Of a stretch of DNA of 29,421 bases, positions 3,060 to 20,058 are shown one piece after another; positions within the stretch are counted from its first letter, which is position 1, and each line of letters opens with the position of its first letter. The DNA is from a virus, in the IMG/VR virus record IMGVR_UViG_3300004369_000097, positions 1-29,421 of that record; one strand, written 5' to 3'. A program made the translations under genes and the position numbers. The notes under the pieces are model-generated. The model did no database searches. It was not told the DNA's origin and saw only the letters and a program-made list of their open reading frames with translations.

Positions 3060-4076
3060 CTAACTTGCGTTTTCTGCTGCTATGAGGCACCCTCTCGCCA
3101 CAGATTTCACTGGGTCTTTTGGACGAACCACTTCGCCGATCTCAATTGGGAGACCAGCACTTAGGATCATTTTCTTAAAGAACACATCAAAGCCGGGAGG
3201 ACTAGCAGTGCCACCAGCAACTACAATGTCGATTGGGTCTTCAAGACGAGCCTTCTTGTCTGAATTTTCCATCAGACCTTTCTTCAAGCCGCCGATGGTC
3301 TTTTCGATCATCAACTCATATTGAGTTTTGATGGCACGCTCTACGAGATTGATTGGCTCTCGACCTAGATCGATCTTGGTTTTTTCTCTGTTGATAAAGG
3401 CAATAGTCTCACCAGTGGCCTTGGCTGCTTGCTTGTCGATCCAGTCGCCTGAGTTCACGATTGAGAAGGTAAAGACTTCTGCGCCGAACATTGAAAAAGC
3501 TACGTTGACCATGCCTGCACCACAAGAGATGCCAATGCCTGTGTACATCTTGTCAGCCAGTTCCGCATACACGAGAGCCATGCCTTCGTTGATTGGGCGA
3601 GCATCGACTGTGAAGCCATCTTCGCTTCTGTATGCCTTGAAGATTGCTTCCAGAATCTTTCTGTGATAGTCTGCGTCTGTCTCTGCGTTCACAGCGTTCG
3701 CAGGAACACTATAGAGTAGAATCTCTTTGTCTTGCTTTACGTTCTCAAGCAAGCTGTGCATCATGATGTTCATGATCTGGAAGGCGTCACGTTCTTTTGG
3801 ATTGACACAGCCGTCCTTCATGGGACGCTTGAGGTCAATCTTAGGCATTGTGTAGGCCATCTTCACTGCGGCCTCGCCCAATGCGTATGCAACATTTGCA
3901 TCTTCTCTGTGGATGAGAGGCACACCTGCCTTTTTCATCATGTTGAATACGAAGTCGTTATCCATTGGGAATTCCAAGAATGCGTTGACTTCGCTCTTGT
4001 ATTCAAAATCTTGATCTTCGTCACGTTTGCAGCAGATCAAGTTGTAAGTTCCACAGTCAAATCCAATTCCAGCCAT
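3060..4076 (-). CDS. Actin/MreB/Hsp70-fold ATPase
   Basis: 338 residues, ATG at 4076 with GGAG seven bases upstream. The nucleotide-binding signatures of the actin/sugar kinase/Hsp70 fold appear in order: phosphate 1 (GIGFDCGTYN, residues 3-12), a connect-1-like helix (NEGMALVYAEL, about 163-173), phosphate 2 (GIGISCGAGMVNVAF, 180-194), the adenosine loop (DIVVAGGTASPPGF, 283-296) and a connect-2-like helix (PVKSVARGCLIAA, 322-334). The length is close to MreB and ParM. Phage relatives of this fold segregate DNA or form filaments, but this sequence is not close enough to ParM or PhuZ (a tubulin) to borrow a role. It lies directly after a homing endonuclease gene, whose last codons carry its ribosome site. 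Whether it polymerises or acts as a chaperone-like ATPase is open. Confidence 0.88.
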   Translation of the reverse strand: MAGIGFDCGTYNLICCKRDEDQDFEYKSEVNAFLEFPMDNDFVFNMMKKAGVPLIHREDANVAYALGEAAVKMAYTMPKIDLKRPMKDGCVNPKERDAFQIMNIMMHSLLENVKQDKEILLYSVPANAVNAETDADYHRKILEAIFKAYRSEDGFTVDARPINEGMALVYAELADKMYTGIGISCGAGMVNVAFSMFGAEVFTFSIVNSGDWIDKQAAKATGETIAFINREKTKIDLGREPINLVERAIKTQYELMIEKTIGGLKKGLMENSDKKARLEDPIDIVVAGGTASPPGFDVFFKKMILSAGLPIEIGEVVRPKDPVKSVARGCLIAAENAS

Positions 4077-4077
4077 A

Positions 4078-4449
4078 TTATTTCTCCAAATTTATATGGC
4101 CCCATCTGGTGCCATTGTTGATCCTAGTTATTACAGTGCGACTGACTTTGAAGTCCTCTGCTATGTATTGATGCTTCTCACCCTTAAGAAGCCTTAACTT
4201 GATTTCTCTCACATCCTCTTCTGATAGTTTAGCATTACAGTTCTTGCTACCACGCATTAGCTTTTGCAAAACTGCTCTGTTCTTCCCACCGAAGTTAGGA
4301 TTGTCGCCACCTGTGTATTTGCCTTTCTTGGCTTTGCTCATCATGAGCTTCGTCTTGGTCGAGTGCGATTTTCCAAAGAAAGAGTTAAGTTCTCCCCTTT
4401 TGGACGTGAAACTCTTGTCTATGTTGTACAACATAGATAGGAACTTCAT
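4078..4449 (-). CDS. C-terminal half of a GIY-YIG homing endonuclease (NUMOD3 and HTH part), separate frame
   Basis: An open frame of 123 residues that looks like the DNA-binding half of a GIY-YIG endonuclease. It has GELNSFFGKSHSTKTK, matching the NUMOD3 pattern (N-x-F-G-K-x-H-S-x-x-T), a second Gly/Asn-rich zinc-free finger-like region, and a C-terminal helix-turn-helix (EDVREIKLRLLKGE, HQYIAEDFKVSRTVITRIN). It lies in the +1 frame relative to the upstream GIY-YIG ORF and overlaps it by 65 bases. The first ATG (4449) has no clear ribosome site, so this is more likely the displaced end of one gene than a gene of its own. It ends one base before the actin-like gene. Confidence 0.7.
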   Translation of the reverse strand: MKFLSMLYNIDKSFTSKRGELNSFFGKSHSTKTKLMMSKAKKGKYTGGDNPNFGGKNRAVLQKLMRGSKNCNAKLSEEDVREIKLRLLKGEKHQYIAEDFKVSRTVITRINNGTRWGHINLEK

Positions 4450-4681
4450 TCGCTTGTTGTTCTTCTATGACATCAAGCTCGTTAGCCTCGCATTCAGCCA
4501 GAACCTTGAACTCAAAGGCGTCTAATCCATACTTGTCCCAAGCTCTCTGAAGGTGAACATTTATGTGGACACCTTTGTTTAGGTGGTATCTGTGTCGTAT
4601 GAACCGGCTATTGATGTTTACTGATTGACCGACATACATCTTGCCATTGATTTTGTTTAAGATACCGTATATGCCAATCAT
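4385..4681 (-). CDS. GIY-YIG nuclease domain of a homing endonuclease (frame-disrupted)
   Basis: 98 residues, ATG at 4681 with AAGGATG upstream. The N-terminus carries GIYGILNKINGKMYVGQS, the GIY and YVG strands of the nuclease fold. A conserved-type Arg lies in SRFIRHRYHL, and an acidic cluster (ELDVIEEQ, about 68-75) holds the expected metal-binding Glu. After about residue 76 the frame becomes unrelated and ends, while the NUMOD3/HTH half continues in the +1 frame from about 4460 to 4078. The gene is therefore either inactivated by a one-base indel, split into two proteins, or read by a ribosomal frameshift. It is a freestanding element between the 79-aa gene and the actin-like gene. Confidence 0.85.
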   Translation of the reverse strand: MIGIYGILNKINGKMYVGQSVNINSRFIRHRYHLNKGVHINVHLQRAWDKYGLDAFEFKVLAECEANELDVIEEQQANEVPIYVVQHRQEFHVQKGRT

Positions 4682-4931: not shown

Positions 4932-5930
4932 CTATGAGATTGGCCACTTTTTGAACATCTGATCTGCCTTATTTAATATCATGTCAGATGTTATCTCTGT
5001 AAGACAAGGCTTCGGATTATTTTGTGTTTTAGTACACGCACCCCAGTTATAACATGGACCACATGTCCAACAGGGGTCTTCATCTCTGTGTCTTTGAACC
5101 AAGAAGAAGTCGAAGTATTTGCCATACATTTTTCCGTCTGCAAAGGTGAAAATACCCACCAAGGGCTTGCCCATACCTCCTGCACAATGGAACGCCGCTG
5201 TGTCCACGGTGATGTTGTAATCCGTCTGATTCAGAATACCCATCCATTCTCGTATTGAAGTACCACTGATACAGGGAATGTCATTTCTTATGAGAGTGTA
5301 AATGGGGTGATTGTGTAGTCCGAAAACGTAATATCCTCGTTCTCTAAGACCGGCCACTGTTTCTAAAAGTTGATGCTTCAGAAGGTTTTTGTTTTCCATG
5401 GCGGAAATAGGAGCAATACAAACGGCTGGCCCTTGACGATCACGATGTTGCTCAATAATGTCTTTGCCTCGTTGCTTCTCCTCATCCGTGAGATGAATGT
5501 GCATTTTGTGGTTGGATAGAATTACGCCGCACTGGTCCGACCAGATATCTGATCTGTGTTTTCCAGAATAGGGAGCCATTCCCATCTCATAGCGACCACA
5601 AGCTGTCGTGGTATTGTAGTGGACGATGTAATCCCTACGTTGAACATCGAAGGAGTTTACAACCTTTGCAATGTATGGGTGATCTGCTACAGCGGGGTGA
5701 TATTGGGGAGGACAGGCAAAATGGACTTCAACATCAGGCATTATCCTGTGGAAGTCCTCAAACATCATGCGGTGCATGAAGATATCACCCAATCCGCCTG
5801 TGTTACGAAACACAAGAATCTTGTTTCGTTTTTCGTAGAAGTCCTTCAGACTGAGAACTCTTTGGATTTTCTCTGGTCTTTCTCGACGAACCAATCCGGT
5901 GACACGTTTTCTTTGTTGAACTACTGGCAT
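4932..5930 (-). CDS. GT9-family (heptosyltransferase-like) glycosyltransferase
   Basis: 332 residues, a typical length for glycosyltransferase family 9. Residues 38-49 (ILVFRNTGGLGD) match the N-terminal GGxGD loop of heptosyltransferases. Residues 242-261 carry the C-terminal donor-site signature VDTAAFHCAGGMGKPLVGIF, equivalent to the DTGxxHxAAALGxP motif of this family. A cluster of Cys (about 287, 290, 293, 299, 309: CWTCGPC and later) near the C-terminus resembles a structural zinc or disulfide site. GT9 enzymes of bacteria add heptose or other sugars to lipopolysaccharide; here a virion or host glycan substrate is an inference. The gene starts 20 bases past a strong terminator and its ATG has no Shine-Dalgarno, so its expression is unclear. 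Confidence 0.88.
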   Translation of the reverse strand: MPVVQQRKRVTGLVRRERPEKIQRVLSLKDFYEKRNKILVFRNTGGLGDIFMHRMMFEDFHRIMPDVEVHFACPPQYHPAVADHPYIAKVVNSFDVQRRDYIVHYNTTTACGRYEMGMAPYSGKHRSDIWSDQCGVILSNHKMHIHLTDEEKQRGKDIIEQHRDRQGPAVCIAPISAMENKNLLKHQLLETVAGLRERGYYVFGLHNHPIYTLIRNDIPCISGTSIREWMGILNQTDYNITVDTAAFHCAGGMGKPLVGIFTFADGKMYGKYFDFFLVQRHRDEDPCWTCGPCYNWGACTKTQNNPKPCLTEITSDMILNKADQMFKKWPIS

Positions 5931-8292: not shown

Positions 8293-8318
8293 TGGCGTTC
8301 CAGAAAGGAATCTATAAC

Positions 8319-9818
8319 ATGTACGAAGGCAAGAATTTTAGGAACGGAGTTTGGCATTGTTTCGGTGAGACGTTTGATGCTATTAACCCGTCCTCAGAAG
8401 AAGTTTATGGTCGTTTCCCTCAAACCAACAAGTTGGAGGTCGATAACACTGTAAAAGCAGCACGAGCCGCTTCACACGAATGGAAGAAGCTCAGCCGAGT
8501 CAAACGAGGAGAACTCTTTGATACATTGGCTCAACTCATCAAACGAGACCACGAGTGTCTCAAACATGCCATCTCAGTCGAGACTGGCAAAAACCTTAAT
8601 GAATCACACGCTGAGGTGATAGAGGCACTACACATGTGCCAAGTCGCAGCAGCCGCAGGGAGACAGCCCTATGGTGAGTGCATTGCGTCAGAGCTTAGCA
8701 CAAAAGATGCTTATGTTGTTCGCAAGCCTCGTGGTGTTGTTGCTGTTATCTCTCCTTGGAATTTTCCTCTTGCTATTGGTAGTTTTTGGAGTTCCGCTCC
8801 TGCTCTCGTTGAGGGTAACACTGTTGTACACAAACCTTCTGAACTTACCCCCATGGTCAACCAAATGATCGCCACCCTCTACGAAGAGGCGGGCTTTCCG
8901 GCTGGTGTTTACAATCTGATTCACGGCGATGGTACGACAGGAGATCATCTGGTTAAGTCTGATGTGGATGTGATCTTGTTCACTGGCTCTGCCGAAGTTG
9001 GACAACTCATTCGCCAACATTGTGCCAGCACCCATTCCAAAACTTGTAGTATTGAATGTGGTTCTAAGTCAGCCACTATTGTATTCGAAGATGGCAATAT
9101 GAATCTGGGTGTAACTGCTGCTGCTGCCTCTTCATTCAAATTGAGTGGGCAGAGATGCGTGTCATCTGGTCGTATTTTGGTTCAAAGAAGCATCTTCGAT
9201 GAGTTCGCTGCTGCGTATGTGAAATACATTGAAGACGAAGTGTACATTGGAAATCCCTTGGATACAGATGGAAAATGTGGTCTTAATTACGGCCCACTGA
9301 TTAGTGCAGAACACATGGCAAAGGTTGCCAGCTTTAACCAACTGGTCCGTGAAGACAAAGACGCCCAAGTTCTTTATGATCCAGACAATGCCGAGGGCAC
9401 AATCAAAGAATCTTATGGGTGGAAGGGTTACTTCCTGCGACCATTTGTTTACAAATGCGAATGGATGGATAAACCATTCTTGAAGCAAGAGGTCTTTGGA
9501 CCGCATGTCGCATTGATTCCTTTCGATGATCTGGATGATGCAATTCGCATTTACAATGATACAGATTATGGACTGGCTCTAGGTATCATCACAGATGACT
9601 ACCGCAAACATCGCAGGATCGCTCAGGAATGCACGACAGGCATGTTGTATATCAATGGTGGCAGCATTGCTGCGGAGAGTCACATCCCATTCTCTTCGTG
9701 GAAGAAGAGTGGCTATGGAGCTAGTGCTTCAGCTACTTGGAAGGCAGTTACACATACAATGTCTGTGACAGTCAACTACGAAGAAGGTAATTTGTCTTGG
9801 GCGCAGGGTATGAAATGA
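8319..9818 (+). CDS. NAD(P)-dependent aldehyde dehydrogenase
   Basis: 499 residues, the full length of this superfamily. I start at ATG 8319, which has AAAGGA upstream; the frame is open a little further. Conserved elements are in place: SPWNFPLAIG (about 145-154, with the Asn of the oxyanion hole), the cofactor Lys in VVHKPSE (about 172), FTGSAEVG (221-228), the general-base Glu in SIECGSKS (about 246), the catalytic Cys in GQRCVSSGR (about 280) and EVFGP (391-395). The usual ELGGK is ECGSK here, but the Glu is kept. It should oxidise an aldehyde to an acid; the substrate cannot be told from sequence (succinate-semialdehyde or ketoglutarate-semialdehyde type are both possible). It overlaps the 76-aa gene by ATGA and sits in one unit with a UDP-sugar dehydrogenase, so a sugar-derived aldehyde is a reasonable guess. 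Confidence 0.96.
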   Translation: MYEGKNFRNGVWHCFGETFDAINPSSEEVYGRFPQTNKLEVDNTVKAARAASHEWKKLSRVKRGELFDTLAQLIKRDHECLKHAISVETGKNLNESHAEVIEALHMCQVAAAAGRQPYGECIASELSTKDAYVVRKPRGVVAVISPWNFPLAIGSFWSSAPALVEGNTVVHKPSELTPMVNQMIATLYEEAGFPAGVYNLIHGDGTTGDHLVKSDVDVILFTGSAEVGQLIRQHCASTHSKTCSIECGSKSATIVFEDGNMNLGVTAAAASSFKLSGQRCVSSGRILVQRSIFDEFAAAYVKYIEDEVYIGNPLDTDGKCGLNYGPLISAEHMAKVASFNQLVREDKDAQVLYDPDNAEGTIKESYGWKGYFLRPFVYKCEWMDKPFLKQEVFGPHVALIPFDDLDDAIRIYNDTDYGLALGIITDDYRKHRRIAQECTTGMLYINGGSIAAESHIPFSSWKKSGYGASASATWKAVTHTMSVTVNYEEGNLSWAQGMK

Positions 9819-10045
9819 CAGAAGTTTTTCGACGCCAAGTGGGTAATGAAGTTACCTACTTGGCTCATCTTGACAATCCTCCACGCAAACTCAAAGCAGT
9901 TTGGACAGTGGAGGCCGAGCAGGATTTGCGAGCTTGGACCAATACCTCTACCTCGTTCATGCAAGAGTTGGCAAACAACTTGCGCAGAGAAATGGGTTTT
10001 GATTCAACTCAAGAAACACACAATTGGAAAGAAGAGGGTTTTTGA
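9815..10045 (+). CDS. 76-aa protein with a capsid-like motif
   Basis: ATG at 9815 overlaps the dehydrogenase stop as ATGA and has AGGG seven bases upstream; the stop is one base before the next ATG. Translational coupling on both sides supports a real gene. The middle (RKLKAVWTVEAEQDLRAW, then MQELANNLRREM) resembles a segment that I recall from T4-gp23-type major capsid proteins (RxLKAxWTxEAxQDLxA, then a helix with EL...EI.REI). If so, this would be a detached fragment of a capsid protein or a small protein that shares that element. The match is from memory and unchecked. It lies between two metabolic enzyme genes, which does not explain its function. Confidence 0.8.
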   Translation: MTEVFRRQVGNEVTYLAHLDNPPRKLKAVWTVEAEQDLRAWTNTSTSFMQELANNLRREMGFDSTQETHNWKEEGF

Positions 10046-10046
10046 A

Positions 10047-10913
10047 ATGAACAGTATTGGTATTATCGGGCAAGGTTTTGTTGGGGGTGCTGTCTTTGAT
10101 GGAATGTGTCACGCATTTGACATTACTGCATACGACATTAAAACAGGCATAACAGGAACAAAGAGATGTTGCACAAATGTTAAATTGGAAGATGGGTACA
10201 AACAGGTTTTGAATGAAACGGATGGGCCGATTTTTGTGTGCATTCCTACACCCATGAACCCTGATGGTTCTTGCAATACAGAAATTGTAAAGGGCGTGTT
10301 GGCCAAGTTAAATGAACTGACAGATAAGCCTCGGGTGGTTTGTATCAAGTCTACTATGACACCCGGAACGACCGCTCGTTTCGATGAGATGTTTGAGAAC
10401 CTCCATGTTTGTTACAATCCAGAGTTCTTGCGTGAAGCTACAGCTTTGGAGGATTTCAAGAATCAAGACCGAATCATTATCGGTGGCCCACGAGAAGGTA
10501 CAAATGTCTTGAAGCAAATGTATGAAACGGCCTATCCAGATGTGCCTGTCACAAAGACATCTTCAACCATAGCTGAGTTGGTTAAATACACAACGAACTG
10601 CTTTTTGGCAGTTAAGGTGGCTTTTGCAAACGAACTCGCTGAATTGTGTGGTGCGTTGGGTGAGGACTATGACAAGGTTGTCGAGTACGCCACAAAAGAC
10701 AAGAGGTTGGGAAGTTCACACTGGTCTGTTCCCGGCCCTGATGGGAAGAAGGGTTTTGGGGGAAGTTGCTTCCCAAAAGACCTGAATGCTCTTATGAAAC
10801 TATCCGAAGAAAATGGTTTGGATTGCAACACCATGAAAGGTGCTTGGGAAACTAACCTTCGAGTCCGTCCAGAAAAAGACTGGACGGAACTCAAAGGACG
10901 TGCTGTCATTTAG
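10047..10913 (+). CDS. UDP-glucose/GDP-mannose 6-dehydrogenase, short form
   Basis: 288 residues from ATG 10047, spaced one base from the preceding stop. The N-terminal Rossmann loop is GIIGQGFVG (5-13). Then come FVCIPTPMNPDG (63-74), CIKSTMTPGTT (99-109), YNPEFLREATALEDF (123-137), the Lys/Asn active-site helix ELVKYTTNCF (177-186) and the catalytic loop GFGGSCFPKDL with Cys at about 241. These are the active-site elements of the family that oxidises C6 of a nucleotide sugar to a uronic acid with two NAD. The usual C-terminal UDP-binding Rossmann domain (about 100-150 residues) is absent; only about 40 residues follow the catalytic Cys. The enzyme may bind its substrate differently or work with a partner. 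It ends tail to tail with the 109-aa minus-strand gene, overlapping by 8 bases. Confidence 0.95.
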   Translation: MNSIGIIGQGFVGGAVFDGMCHAFDITAYDIKTGITGTKRCCTNVKLEDGYKQVLNETDGPIFVCIPTPMNPDGSCNTEIVKGVLAKLNELTDKPRVVCIKSTMTPGTTARFDEMFENLHVCYNPEFLREATALEDFKNQDRIIIGGPREGTNVLKQMYETAYPDVPVTKTSSTIAELVKYTTNCFLAVKVAFANELAELCGALGEDYDKVVEYATKDKRLGSSHWSVPGPDGKKGFGGSCFPKDLNALMKLSEENGLDCNTMKGAWETNLRVRPEKDWTELKGRAVI

Positions 10914-17313: not shown

Positions 17314-18036
17314 TTAACCTCGTGCTTTTGCTTTCGCTTCCACTTTGGGTGTCTCTGTCTTTGACTCCTTCCCGTGTTCTAACATTTTGGTTTGGATTTG
17401 GTTGACAAGACCAATCACATGAGATTTTACAGGCGAACCGTTGTCTAACGACAACACAGTCTTGATGAATTCTGGATCAAGAGGCTTATTAAACATTACT
17501 CTCAGATTAAACTCTTCGAGTAGCTTCTCGTTCCAGTATTCTCTCTGTGCCTGTTCATCATCCAGCGGTTTCATTTCACCAACGACTGCAATAATGCGGT
17601 CGTAGCCATGCGCCAGAAACGACATCTCTTCCATTACGTTTTTCAGCTTTTGCTGAACTTTTTGTGCAGCTTTGGTGAGTTGTTCCTTTTCTCTCTGCAA
17701 CTTTCTTATATTTATCTCACACTCCCTGATTCTCAGATCGAGATATTCGCCTTTATCTGATTCGTCCATTGTGGCCAAATCTCTGATGGTTCGATCCATT
17801 CTCTCAATTCTGATGTCGAAGAGTTCGAGTTCGTCTTCACAGTCCACCAGTTGTTTGCTATAAGATTCAACTGTTTCACGTCGAGCATTGAGTTCCCTGA
17901 CAATTTGCCAAAGTTGTGATTGTCCGGTTGGCTCCTTGCCGATTATGAATTTTTCGATCTGAAAGAAGGTATGACGGTCAGGAAGTGTGTTTTTCTTCAA
18001 GATACCTTCCACCTTCTCTGTAAGTTCTGTTGACAC
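17314..18036 (-). CDS. Coiled-coil protein, 240 aa (GTG start)
   Basis: I choose the GTG at 18036, preceded by AGGAGG and a seven-base spacer; the frame is open upstream to a TTG at 18060 that has no such site. Residues about 45-145 are heptad-like and highly charged (for example LVDCEDELELFDIRIERMDRTI and IRKLQREKEQLTKAAQKVQQKLK), which indicates a long coiled coil. The C-terminus is a Lys/Glu/Ala-rich tail (TPKVEAKAKARG). It directly precedes the PKD trio, three bases before it, so it may be a rod, chaperone or assembly partner. Family not recognised. Confidence 0.88.
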   Translation of the reverse strand: MSTELTEKVEGILKKNTLPDRHTFFQIEKFIIGKEPTGQSQLWQIVRELNARRETVESYSKQLVDCEDELELFDIRIERMDRTIRDLATMDESDKGEYLDLRIRECEINIRKLQREKEQLTKAAQKVQQKLKNVMEEMSFLAHGYDRIIAVVGEMKPLDDEQAQREYWNEKLLEEFNLRVMFNKPLDPEFIKTVLSLDNGSPVKSHVIGLVNQIQTKMLEHGKESKTETPKVEAKAKARG

Positions 18037-18075
18037 TGAATGTCCTCCTATTTTCTTCAATTAGAAGAGTGTCAT

Positions 18076-18104
18076 TTGCATTTTTCTTGATTGTCCACTA
18101 TGAT
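18076..18104 (+). promoter_or_regulatory. Sigma-70-like promoter of the LAGLIDADG gene
   Basis: TTGCAT at 18076-18081, a 17-base spacer and TATGAT at 18099-18104 (5 of 6 to TATAAT). The predicted start, six to seven bases after the -10, coincides with ATG 18111, so the mRNA would be leaderless. Confidence 0.65.
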
Positions 18105-18110
18105 AACAAC

Positions 18111-18875
18111 ATGAGAAGAAATATCATTCCTAAAGACCAACTTGTTCATCTCTATCATGAGAAAAAGAAAACAGATTTGGAGATCGCCAAAATCTTCCAT
18201 TGCACTAAAGGAACGGTGTACAACACAAGGAAAAGGTTTGGCATTAAGAGGTTGAAAAGATGGGAAAGGAACATCTGTCATCCAACAGAAGAGCAATTAC
18301 AAATTTTGTACGGCACTCTTCTTGGAGATGCTTCTCTTACTAATGGCACAAAAAGTTCTTACAGATGTGAGTCCATATTGGAGGTGAAACATTCTTTCAA
18401 ACAAAAACAATATCTCTTTTGGAAACATAAGATGCTGGCATCGCTTTGTGCCTCAAAACCCAAACAGCTTAAGAACAAGCAATGGAGAATTAGAACCTTT
18501 CACCATCCCTATTTCAGCCAACTGAGACAGGAATGGTATCCTCATGGTGTGAAATGCTTAAAAAGTATTGATTGGTCGAAATTAACTCTGTTGAGTGTTG
18601 CTGTTTGGTATATGGACGATGGTTCTTTGAGCAAAAGTTCTAACTTCATAAGATTGCACACTTGCTCATTTACCAAGTCAGACCATATAATTCTTTCAGA
18701 GTGGCTGTTGAAGCAATACGGCATTTCTTCTTACATGAGAGAATACGACGGATATCGCAACTTGGTTATTGATATTGACTCAAGGCTTGAGTTCGTTAAT
18801 ATGATTAAGCCATTTGTCATTTCGTCAATGTCTTACAAAACAACGTTTCGGGAGTATGACCGATGGGTAAATTAG
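18111..18875 (+). CDS. LAGLIDADG homing endonuclease with N-terminal HTH
   Basis: 254 residues. The start at ATG 18111 has no Shine-Dalgarno; see the promoter at 18076-18104. The N-terminus has a helix-turn-helix-like segment (KKKTDLEIAKIFHCTKGTVYNTRKRFGIK, about 18-46). The nuclease domain has two catalytic motifs: LYGTLLGDASL (about 66-76) and LLSVAVWYMDDGSL (about 160-173), with the acidic residues in GDAS and MDDGS. This resembles the LAGLIDADG_2 family (group I intron-type endonucleases, often freestanding in phages). It would cut a target in related phages to spread itself. Its last 13 bases overlap the start of the next gene, a common place for such elements to settle. It is an intact, apparently functional gene. 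Confidence 0.92.
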   Translation: MRRNIIPKDQLVHLYHEKKKTDLEIAKIFHCTKGTVYNTRKRFGIKRLKRWERNICHPTEEQLQILYGTLLGDASLTNGTKSSYRCESILEVKHSFKQKQYLFWKHKMLASLCASKPKQLKNKQWRIRTFHHPYFSQLRQEWYPHGVKCLKSIDWSKLTLLSVAVWYMDDGSLSKSSNFIRLHTCSFTKSDHIILSEWLLKQYGISSYMREYDGYRNLVIDIDSRLEFVNMIKPFVISSMSYKTTFREYDRWVN

Positions 18876-19447
18876 AACGTGCCGTGGCGTATTTGTCAGG
18901 CCCCATGGAATTTGTTGCAGATCACGGAGTTGAATGGCGTCGAAAGTTCATTGAACTTCTGAAGAAAAAAAACTTGAAGATCGATTGCATCGATCCAACT
19001 AACAAACCGGGTGGCCAAGACATCAAAATTGGCGAGAATAAAGAAGAACAGGTGCGTCTGCAACAAGAAGGAAAATGGCTACAACTCAGAGATTACGTCC
19101 GTTCTTACAGGCGATACGATCTGAGGTTCGTGGACATCTCTGATTTTCTTGTGGTCGTAGTCGATCCTCGTGTACCTCAATGGGGCACCAGCAACGAGGT
19201 TTACTTCGCTGAGATGCAGCATAAGCCAATGTTCTTCATCTGCGACGGTGGATTGTACAATCTACCACGTTGGTTGTTTGATGTGGTGGATATTCAAGAT
19301 CACAATGGAACACGCTGTAATGTGTTTCAGAGCGTTGAGGAAGTGGTCCAAGAGCTTGTTGGCATCGACATGGGCGATATCCCCATGACAGACGAGTGGG
19401 TTTTGGTTCGAAAGTTCATCGAACATCAACGACAAGAGATCGGCTAG
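18863..19447 (+). CDS. Nucleoside 2-deoxyribosyltransferase-like protein
   Basis: 194 residues, ATG at 18863 with GGGAG about nine bases upstream. The N-terminus AYLSGPMEF (9-17) matches the first strand and phosphate-loop-like turn of the nucleoside deoxyribosyltransferase fold. RYDLRFVDISDFLVVVVD (84-101) has the I-x-x-S/A-D-x-x-v-v pattern, and WGTSNEVYFAE (107-117) has the GTxxE helix with the likely catalytic Glu at about 112. Family members exchange or hydrolyse the base of deoxynucleosides or deoxynucleotides, so salvage or nucleotide-pool control is likely. Whether it transfers or hydrolyses is not visible. The upstream overlap with the endonuclease suggests that the endonuclease inserted next to this gene. 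It converges with the minus-strand 204-aa gene, overlapping by four bases. Confidence 0.85.
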   Translation: MGKLERAVAYLSGPMEFVADHGVEWRRKFIELLKKKNLKIDCIDPTNKPGGQDIKIGENKEEQVRLQQEGKWLQLRDYVRSYRRYDLRFVDISDFLVVVVDPRVPQWGTSNEVYFAEMQHKPMFFICDGGLYNLPRWLFDVVDIQDHNGTRCNVFQSVEEVVQELVGIDMGDIPMTDEWVLVRKFIEHQRQEIG

Positions 19448-19454
19448 AAGCCGA
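19440..19454. other. Palindromic hairpin over two converging stop codons
   Basis: TCGGCT (19440-19445) and AGCCGA (19449-19454) form a perfect 6-bp stem with an AGA loop. The plus stop (19445-19447) and the minus stop (19444-19446) lie inside it. There is no T-tract, so it is at most a weak two-way terminator. Confidence 0.4.
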
Positions 19455-20058
19455 ATTCTCGCCAATCCAACTTTTGTTCTGTTTGTGGCATGTTGGCCCA
19501 TCCGTGAAGACGAGATTCCATAGTGATTAGTTCCGTGAAGTCGGTATCTAATGGGAATATGCCACCTTGCGGAACAATCACTGGTTGGTGCATGAGGTGC
19601 ATGATGTCTCCTGCTACCAAAGGAGACTCGCCTGCGATCATCTCACCGTTGACAACCACAGAACTATTTGAGAACACCCACTGAGTTTCAACCCATCCTT
19701 GGCCTTCATCTGCGCCAAGGTAATTCATTGATCTCAGTCTTAATCCAGAGAACACATTGATGCTTTCAGTTCTGAGGTTTGGCCAGAGTTCCATGATGTA
19801 AGGAGGCGGATTCTCCTCGAACATAAATTCTGAATACTCCAGATATCTGTCCTCGGCTGGATGACAAAGATGAATTTCCCCAAATCGGGGGCCGGGAACA
19901 ATGTAGGCGGATTCTCCGTGATACAATGTGGAGGTGTTTTGTTCATATTGAACATGCAATTCAATAATTGGAACACGATCAACGATGACTGTACCAGATG
20001 TTCTGATGCAGAATCGCCAATGAAATGGACCGGGTTCGCTTATGTTCCAATGATACAT
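19444..20058 (-). CDS. Unrecognised 204-aa protein in the tail block
   Basis: ATG at 20058 with TAGGAG seven to eight bases upstream; the preceding gene stops at 20066. The sequence is rich in aromatic residues, Pro and Glu with alternating hydrophobic strands (for example GTVIVDRVPIIELHVQY and SSVVVNGEMI), which suggests a beta-sandwich. It has no signal peptide, membrane helix or known catalytic motif. Its place between a glycosyltransferase-like gene and the coiled-coil/PKD genes makes a virion or glycan-related role possible, but I cannot assign one. Confidence 0.82.
   Translation of the reverse strand: MYHWNISEPGPFHWRFCIRTSGTVIVDRVPIIELHVQYEQNTSTLYHGESAYIVPGPRFGEIHLCHPAEDRYLEYSEFMFEENPPPYIMELWPNLRTESINVFSGLRLRSMNYLGADEGQGWVETQWVFSNSSVVVNGEMIAGESPLVAGDIMHLMHQPVIVPQGGIFPLDTDFTELITMESRLHGWANMPQTEQKLDWREFGF

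Follow-up and report, generated by a model that had tools for sequence, protein, structure and literature searches.

In human ALDH7A1, an aldehyde dehydrogenase (ALDH) of the ALDH7/antiquitin type, aminoadipate is bound by Glu121, Arg301, Ala462, Phe168, Trp175, Phe468, Gly461, and Thr303 (PMC11362210). Pelagimyophages carry a UDP-sugar dehydrogenase (UGD) along with glycosyltransferases, partly in host-recognition clusters and partly among tail genes, and the passages of that report considered here make no mention of an ALDH module (PMC7029224). The kinship of lysine-6-dehydrogenase-like, homospermidine-synthase-like, and saccharopine-dehydrogenase-like enzymes has also been noted (PMC9992855). 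A limited search of the open-access literature returned no description of a phage ALDH amino-acid breakdown module with a VOC (glyoxalase-fold) partner.

The window, i.e., the whole stretch of DNA analyzed here, is one entire virus record of 29,421 bases. The genes for an ALDH, a 76-aa ORF (p76), and a UGD form a plus-strand run amid minus-strand tail genes, and the flanking minus-strand genes code for a baseplate wedge protein, an OB-domain baseplate protein, and PKD proteins. The initial annotation had described an ATGA overlap between ALDH and the 76-aa ORF followed by a one-base gap before UGD, and both were read in the sequence, the p76 stop ending at 10045 and UGD starting at 10047 (Table 1). 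The glycosyltransferase-9-like protein also matched NCBIfam heptosyltransferase I (E 9e-7), below the cut-off. Promoter and terminator scans gave matches no more numerous than in shuffles, and an Rfam search gave no match. Elsewhere in the window, an actin-like gene (3060-4076, minus strand; Pfam Volactin, 229 bits) was found, whose homolog in L012, L015, and L017 is split near residue 184 by ∼1 kb, perhaps by an intron or intein-like insertion. A GIY-YIG-type homing endonuclease-like ORF followed by a second endonuclease-like ORF, both putative, lies at 4078-4681 (minus strand). A second plus-strand island contains a LAGLIDADG endonuclease (18030-18875, 109 bits) overlapped by a weakly nucleoside 2-deoxyribosyltransferase-like gene (18863-19447).

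Table 1. Coordinates of the island and of related features in the window.
Feature	Position	Strand	Remarks
Glycosyltransferase-9-like protein	4932..5930	-	Pfam PF01075 E 6e-4, below cut-off; conserved near island
Island small ORF, 96 aa	7761..8051	+	No known family; overlaps next ORF; kept in syntenic relatives
Island small ORF, 127 aa	7885..8268	+	No known family; ~45-52% identity in syntenic relatives
Shine-Dalgarno-like purine-rich stretch AGAAAGGA	8301..8318	+	Directly 5' of ALDH ATG; sequence reading
ALDH, 499 aa, ALDH7-like	8319..9818	+	Catalytic Cys280, Glu246; NAD-type Glu175
ALDH substrate-site residues	8319..9818	+	Glu102, Phe149, Trp157, Arg279, Ala452, Phe458
ATGA stop/start overlap, ALDH/p76	9815..9818	+	ATG 9815-9817, TGA 9816-9818
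p76, 76-aa ORF	9815..10045	+	Residues 24-60 resemble gp23-type major capsid protein segment; tail NWKEEGF
NWKEEGF-stop coding region	10022..10045	+	Contained AAAGAAGAGGG also Shine-Dalgarno-like, for UGD
Short UDP-sugar dehydrogenase (UGD), 288 aa	10047..10913	+	NAD-binding and central domains, catalytic Cys241
204-aa protein	19444-20058	-	No known family; tail DWREFGF as in ALDH-UGD gap; sequence

The reading favored here, with a probability of about 0.52, is that of a small metabolic cassette set among the tail genes of a large phage, which combines a semialdehyde-oxidizing ALDH, a separable nucleotide-sugar UGD, and a non-enzymatic p76; the substrates, cofactor, pathway direction, and glycan role are predictions. 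The ALDH would most likely oxidize an amino-acid omega-semialdehyde using NAD+, with glutamate-gamma-semialdehyde and/or alpha-aminoadipate-semialdehyde yielding glutamate or aminoadipate, and may serve as the final step of host arginine, ornithine, proline, or lysine breakdown during infection. The short UGD would be a linked but separable enzyme, probably converting UDP-glucose to UDP-glucuronate, and its product may feed nearby glycosyltransferases for surface-glycan change. The p76 protein would be one of a variable family of small gap proteins and an enzyme of neither step.

A complete ALDH with its catalytic Cys and Glu intact had been proposed, and this was borne out: the protein matched the full-length Pfam Aldedh domain (PF00171) with 410 bits (cut-off 23), and it has Cys280, Glu246, Asn148, and Lys172, none of which varies in an 11-sequence phage alignment. 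Equivalents of the ALDH7A1 residues Glu121, Arg301, Ala462, Phe168, Trp175, and Phe468 were found in 83/83 phage ALDHs, the human numbering having been transferred via the LR756504 ALDH and the known motif order, so single positions could be off. The Glu121-Arg301 ion pair was present in none of the eight non-ALDH7 ALDH references and was found only in the ALDH7-type reference. Thr303 is replaced by Val in the phage ALDH and Gly461 by Ala in the window clade (6/8 aminoadipate-binding residues kept); the product-anchoring trio Gly461/Ala462/Thr303 was not found as a set, Ala462 alone being retained. The C-terminus of the phage ALDH is T.NY....AQG-like as in ALDH7/antiquitin, and the match to the L-piperidine-6-carboxylate (P6C) dehydrogenase model extends to it. 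Unlike ALDH7/antiquitin, the window ALDH carries the two replacements, falls in a separate clade, and scored 251 bits against the curated cut-off of 730 for the NCBIfam P6C dehydrogenase NF050084. The scores were 246 bits for the P5C dehydrogenase TIGR01237 (curated cut-off 660) and 307 of 638 bits for HpaE, the best among the curated NCBIfam ALDH functions. As all the curated scores are well below cut-off, the ALDH was not filed as a member of a curated family. We would say that it works like an ALDH7/P5C-type enzyme without formal family membership.

Alignment-based searching detected the ALDH family in at least 107 environmental viral contigs (80 kept), and single-sequence scans for ALDH and for UGD found 16 viral loci in each case. 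In the set of 50,697 named phage records, the 40 listed of 80 matching records included two clearly phage ALDHs, from the huge uncultured phages LR756511 (51% identity) and LR756504 (29%), and most of the other matches among these 40 resemble bacterial contigs that were deposited under a phage label. Hence, the view in the initial annotation that ALDH is uncommon in phage agrees with the two clear cases seen among these named-phage matches but has to be restricted in view of the environmental viral contigs. Records labeled as Acinetobacter, Listeria, or Staphylococcus phage, e.g., CAKLQH/CAKLQF and OR84, are apparently bacterial contigs rich in ordinary ALDH genes.

The nearest cellular ALDHs found, in a search covering plasmids only (closer chromosomal ALDHs may exist), were haloarchaeal and plasmid-borne with about 39–43.5% identity. 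These presumed P5C dehydrogenases align at ∼40–43% identity over nearly the full length and share with the phage ALDH the motifs GQRCVS and EE.FGPHVALI as well as the C-terminal region. In the tree with cellular sequences, the phage ALDHs formed their own clade (99), which was joined with its haloarchaeal sister clade (SH-aLRT 93), with long branches elsewhere. Proline dehydrogenase (PRODH) was located within ∼4 kb of the haloarchaeal ALDH in 7/7 loci read. The haloarchaeal ALDHs differ from those of phages in being plasmid genes with PRODH, often with proline transport, and in having no VOC partner or UGD within the stretches read. A host-gene origin of the ALDH was considered and rejected: in a scan of genome contigs with two peptide patterns, which more distant host genes could escape, the sole match was a SAR202 bin contig (L068). 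This is probably a phage contig binned with a bacterium, as its gene order matches that of the viral loci L071, L076, and L091.

Genes of amino-acid metabolism, i.e., lysine-6-dehydrogenase (LysDH)-like, lysine-6-transaminase-like, or arginine-dihydrolase-like (ArgZ), adjoin the ALDH in 50/82 phage loci. LysDH-like genes were counted in 42 of the 82 loci, UGD in 30, and the transaminase and ArgZ in 12 each, neighbors having been clustered by single linkage with rough cluster limits. ArgZ and the transaminase always co-occur (12/12 loci). The transaminase scored 468 bits against the L-lysine 6-transaminase model (cut-off 521), its best solved relative being the L-lysine epsilon aminotransferase 2cin, and ArgZ scored 234 bits against the arginine dihydrolase model (cut-off 450). 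With the ALDH, they apparently form a route from arginine via ornithine and glutamate-semialdehyde to glutamate, provided that the transaminase accepts ornithine. The LysDH-like gene exceeds the cut-off of the saccharopine dehydrogenase C domain; we read it as a lysine-6-dehydrogenase, homospermidine-synthase-like or saccharopine-dehydrogenase-like roles being possible. PRODH was present in 4/17 large records and, in G004, lies directly after the LysDH-like gene. An ATP-type PEP carboxykinase (L051:18313-19614, minus strand; 304 bits) adjoins the PRODH of G004. None of the amino-acid genes (LysDH-like, transaminase, ArgZ, PRODH) lies within the 29,421-base window; they were not found in the fragment records G002 and G008 and are mostly absent near the ALDH group with GroES/IscA context. 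The records are mostly fragments. The ALDH is read as an amino-acid semialdehyde dehydrogenase because of the haloarchaeal PRODH neighbors, the ALDH7A1 residues, and the amino-acid genes adjoining phage ALDHs. A sugar-aldehyde role was rejected, as no curated family fits and the neighboring genes indicate otherwise.

The VOC protein is a more constant partner of the ALDH than UGD. Its gene is located immediately upstream of ALDH in 39/82 loci, and the protein occurs in 14/17 ALDH records, in about half of which the two genes are distant, as against 0/16 UGD records without ALDH (Fisher p ∼1e-6, the independence being overstated as the records are related and were picked by different queries). 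In the 50,697 named phage records, it was found only in LR756511 and LR756504, the same two with ALDH7-like genes. His5, Glu82, His108, His109, and Glu161 are invariant in 45/45 sequences. We take the pattern of His5, Glu82, His109, and Glu161 to be compatible with glyoxalase-type metal binding, as in glyoxalase I. In G002, a close relative of the window, a Rieske ring-hydroxylating oxygenase (L049:5345-6478) lies ∼4 kb from the VOC gene. The invariant residues and the close association of the two genes would fit a detoxification of carbonyls, in which ALDH and VOC shield the infected cell from reactive aldehydes and UGD is an unrelated neighbor. This is quite improbable, as the top family matches of VOC, methylmalonyl-CoA epimerase and hydroxyphenylpyruvate dioxygenase, are each far below cut-off, and the LysDH-like, transaminase, ArgZ, and PRODH neighbors as well as the carboxylate-anchor residues of the ALDH would be left unaccounted for.

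Analysis of UGD showed the NAD-binding N-terminal domain (74 bits, cut-off 27) and the central domain (88 bits, cut-off 25), with 190.7 bits against 189.8 for TIGR03026. These domains, the GGSCFPKD catalytic motif, and the folds (1mfz, 3vtf) are shared with UDP-glucose 6-dehydrogenase and GDP-mannose dehydrogenase. Unlike these enzymes, the phage protein lacks the C-terminal UDP-binding domain, which was absent from the window UGD and from its aligned relatives; they end in a conserved DWExLKGRAV, and the window UGD stops at LKGRAV, approximately where that domain would start. This short form is conserved. Aligned phage short UGDs showed 43–73% identity to the window UGD, and Cys241 is invariant across 15 aligned sequences; the L016 UGD in the alignment, being short and internally gapped, may be a damaged copy in that record. 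The structure model is confident (pLDDT 90); over the domains that are retained, it agrees with the folds of UGD and GDP-mannose dehydrogenase. The family was confirmed in at least 585 viral stretches (alignment-based search; 80 kept), and in other phages, related UGDs have sugar epimerases and glycosyltransferases as neighbors. By analogy with these phages and the pelagimyophages, UGD may have a role in surface glycans.

A chance arrangement of ALDH and UGD was ruled out, since ALDH followed by UGD is conserved in independent contigs at ∼48–74% identity. UGD is on the strand of ALDH in 30/30 loci with both genes and lies ≤2.6 kb downstream in 28/30; in the remaining two, it is ∼6–7 kb upstream. 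The pairing spans at least three unrelated gene settings. The tail synteny of the window around ALDH recurs in ∼12 loci, some of them near-duplicates, and another setting (L010, L014, L016, L069, L070) has Fe-S-carrier-like and GroES-like genes around ALDH-UGD, with IF-3 in L010. In the huge-phage ALDH setting (L010, L016, L062), the Fe-S carrier and GroES-like genes occur with IF-3 in L010 and L062 and with a DnaJ-like gene in L016. Pairwise protein distances of ALDH and UGD were correlated (Mantel r 0.73; 0/10,000 permutations as high, maximum 0.38), which could result from a common descent of the phages instead of a joint function. ALDH was also found without UGD in 52/82 loci, including the syntenic G005 and G008, and 16/16 tested UGD-bearing records were without ALDH. 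Of the three-gene order proposed initially, ALDH followed by UGD is thus kept in the relatives (28/30 loci with both), but the 76-aa gene is not constant. The shared process suggested from the tight packing is in agreement with the intact look of the enzymes, the conserved pair, and the correlated distances; a necessary common process was not supported, given the separate occurrences, and the ALDH residues and neighbors indicate amino-acid semialdehydes rather than sugars.

One shared pathway, in which ALDH, VOC, and UGD build an unusual sugar or an amino-acid-decorated uronic acid for the host surface, the virion, or DNA, is unlikely, although UGD lies after ALDH in several settings and the divergence of the two is correlated. 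Also in its favor, ALDH forms a single run with ArgZ, the transaminase, and UGD in most of the 12 loci. The island of the relatives is flanked by glycosyltransferases, and other ALDH loci contain genes resembling epimerases and cytidylyltransferases. Apart from the separate occurrences, the ALDH residues and haloarchaeal neighbors speak for amino-acid semialdehydes, and no dedicated condensing enzyme was seen. Independent cargo in a variable spot, perhaps brought by homing endonucleases and packed tightly by phage compactness, would agree with ALDH and UGD each being found alone, with the variable small ORFs of the gap, and with the HNH-like ORFs (judged by sequence motifs) that L007, L009, and L012 carry as insertions in this gap. 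The same order and strand in 28/30 loci over several contexts and the correlated distances make such an origin rather improbable.

In the favored reading, that of a metabolic cassette, p76 has no enzymatic part. The initial annotation had the 76-aa gene link the two enzymes; it turned out to be one of several variable small gap ORFs, some related to capsid fragments. Against the gp23 major capsid family (PF07068), p76 scored 18 of 24.4 bits over 37 residues only and does not span a full-length capsid fold. Matches to phrog_138 (major head protein) were obtained for p76 (E 9e-4), L009 (5.6e-9), L011 (5e-8), L004 (2.5e-7), and L013 (6e-4), and the gap ORF of L002 matched a different phrog_138 segment (E 1.5e-12). 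The capsid protein of the relative G008 aligned with the small gap ORFs at 38–69% over 30–45 residues. Hence, p76-family ORFs contain short segments of the T4-type gp23, but unlike gp23 they hold only pieces of ∼30–80 residues, embedded in small proteins that end in [ND]WxxEGF. The structure model of p76 was of low confidence (pLDDT 69, pTM 0.29).

The p76-family proteins all end in [ND]WxxxGF, and several carry the major-capsid fragments. A count over 3.18 Mb of retrieved loci gave 15 different C-termini with the motif [ND]W..xGF as against 0 for three permuted motifs, some loci overlapping and the L001 row being the window itself. All these C-termini fall in the ALDH-UGD island or in the gene family at 19444. 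The E-G codons of the tail at the same time form a Shine-Dalgarno-like site in front of the next gene. That this overlap alone accounts for the tail was rejected, as the 19444-20058 gene and its G002 homolog keep W..xGF without such context and lose the E. It is a very doubtful idea that the small gap ORFs are dedicated proteins serving as capsid mimics, e.g., decoys for capsid-sensing host defense or assembly factors, which display major-capsid fragments of the phage's own type beside the conserved tail and share a cassette with an amino-acid pathway of ALDH and VOC.

Against the metabolic cassette stand the VOC partner, which is without an obvious place in an amino-acid pathway, a UGD without the domain that normally binds UDP, the curated ALDH scores together with the Thr303 and Gly461 changes, and the amino-acid genes, which are absent from the window and were not found in the fragments G002 and G008. 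If the reading is true, many large phages would bear their own amino-acid breakdown steps, with an apparent arginine-to-glutamate set in twelve loci. The VOC protein traveling with ALDH would be a defined partner to assay, and the unannotated PHROG phrog_15577 would gain a clear substrate prediction. With the short UGD, it could be seen whether such an enzyme works when its UDP-binding domain is missing.
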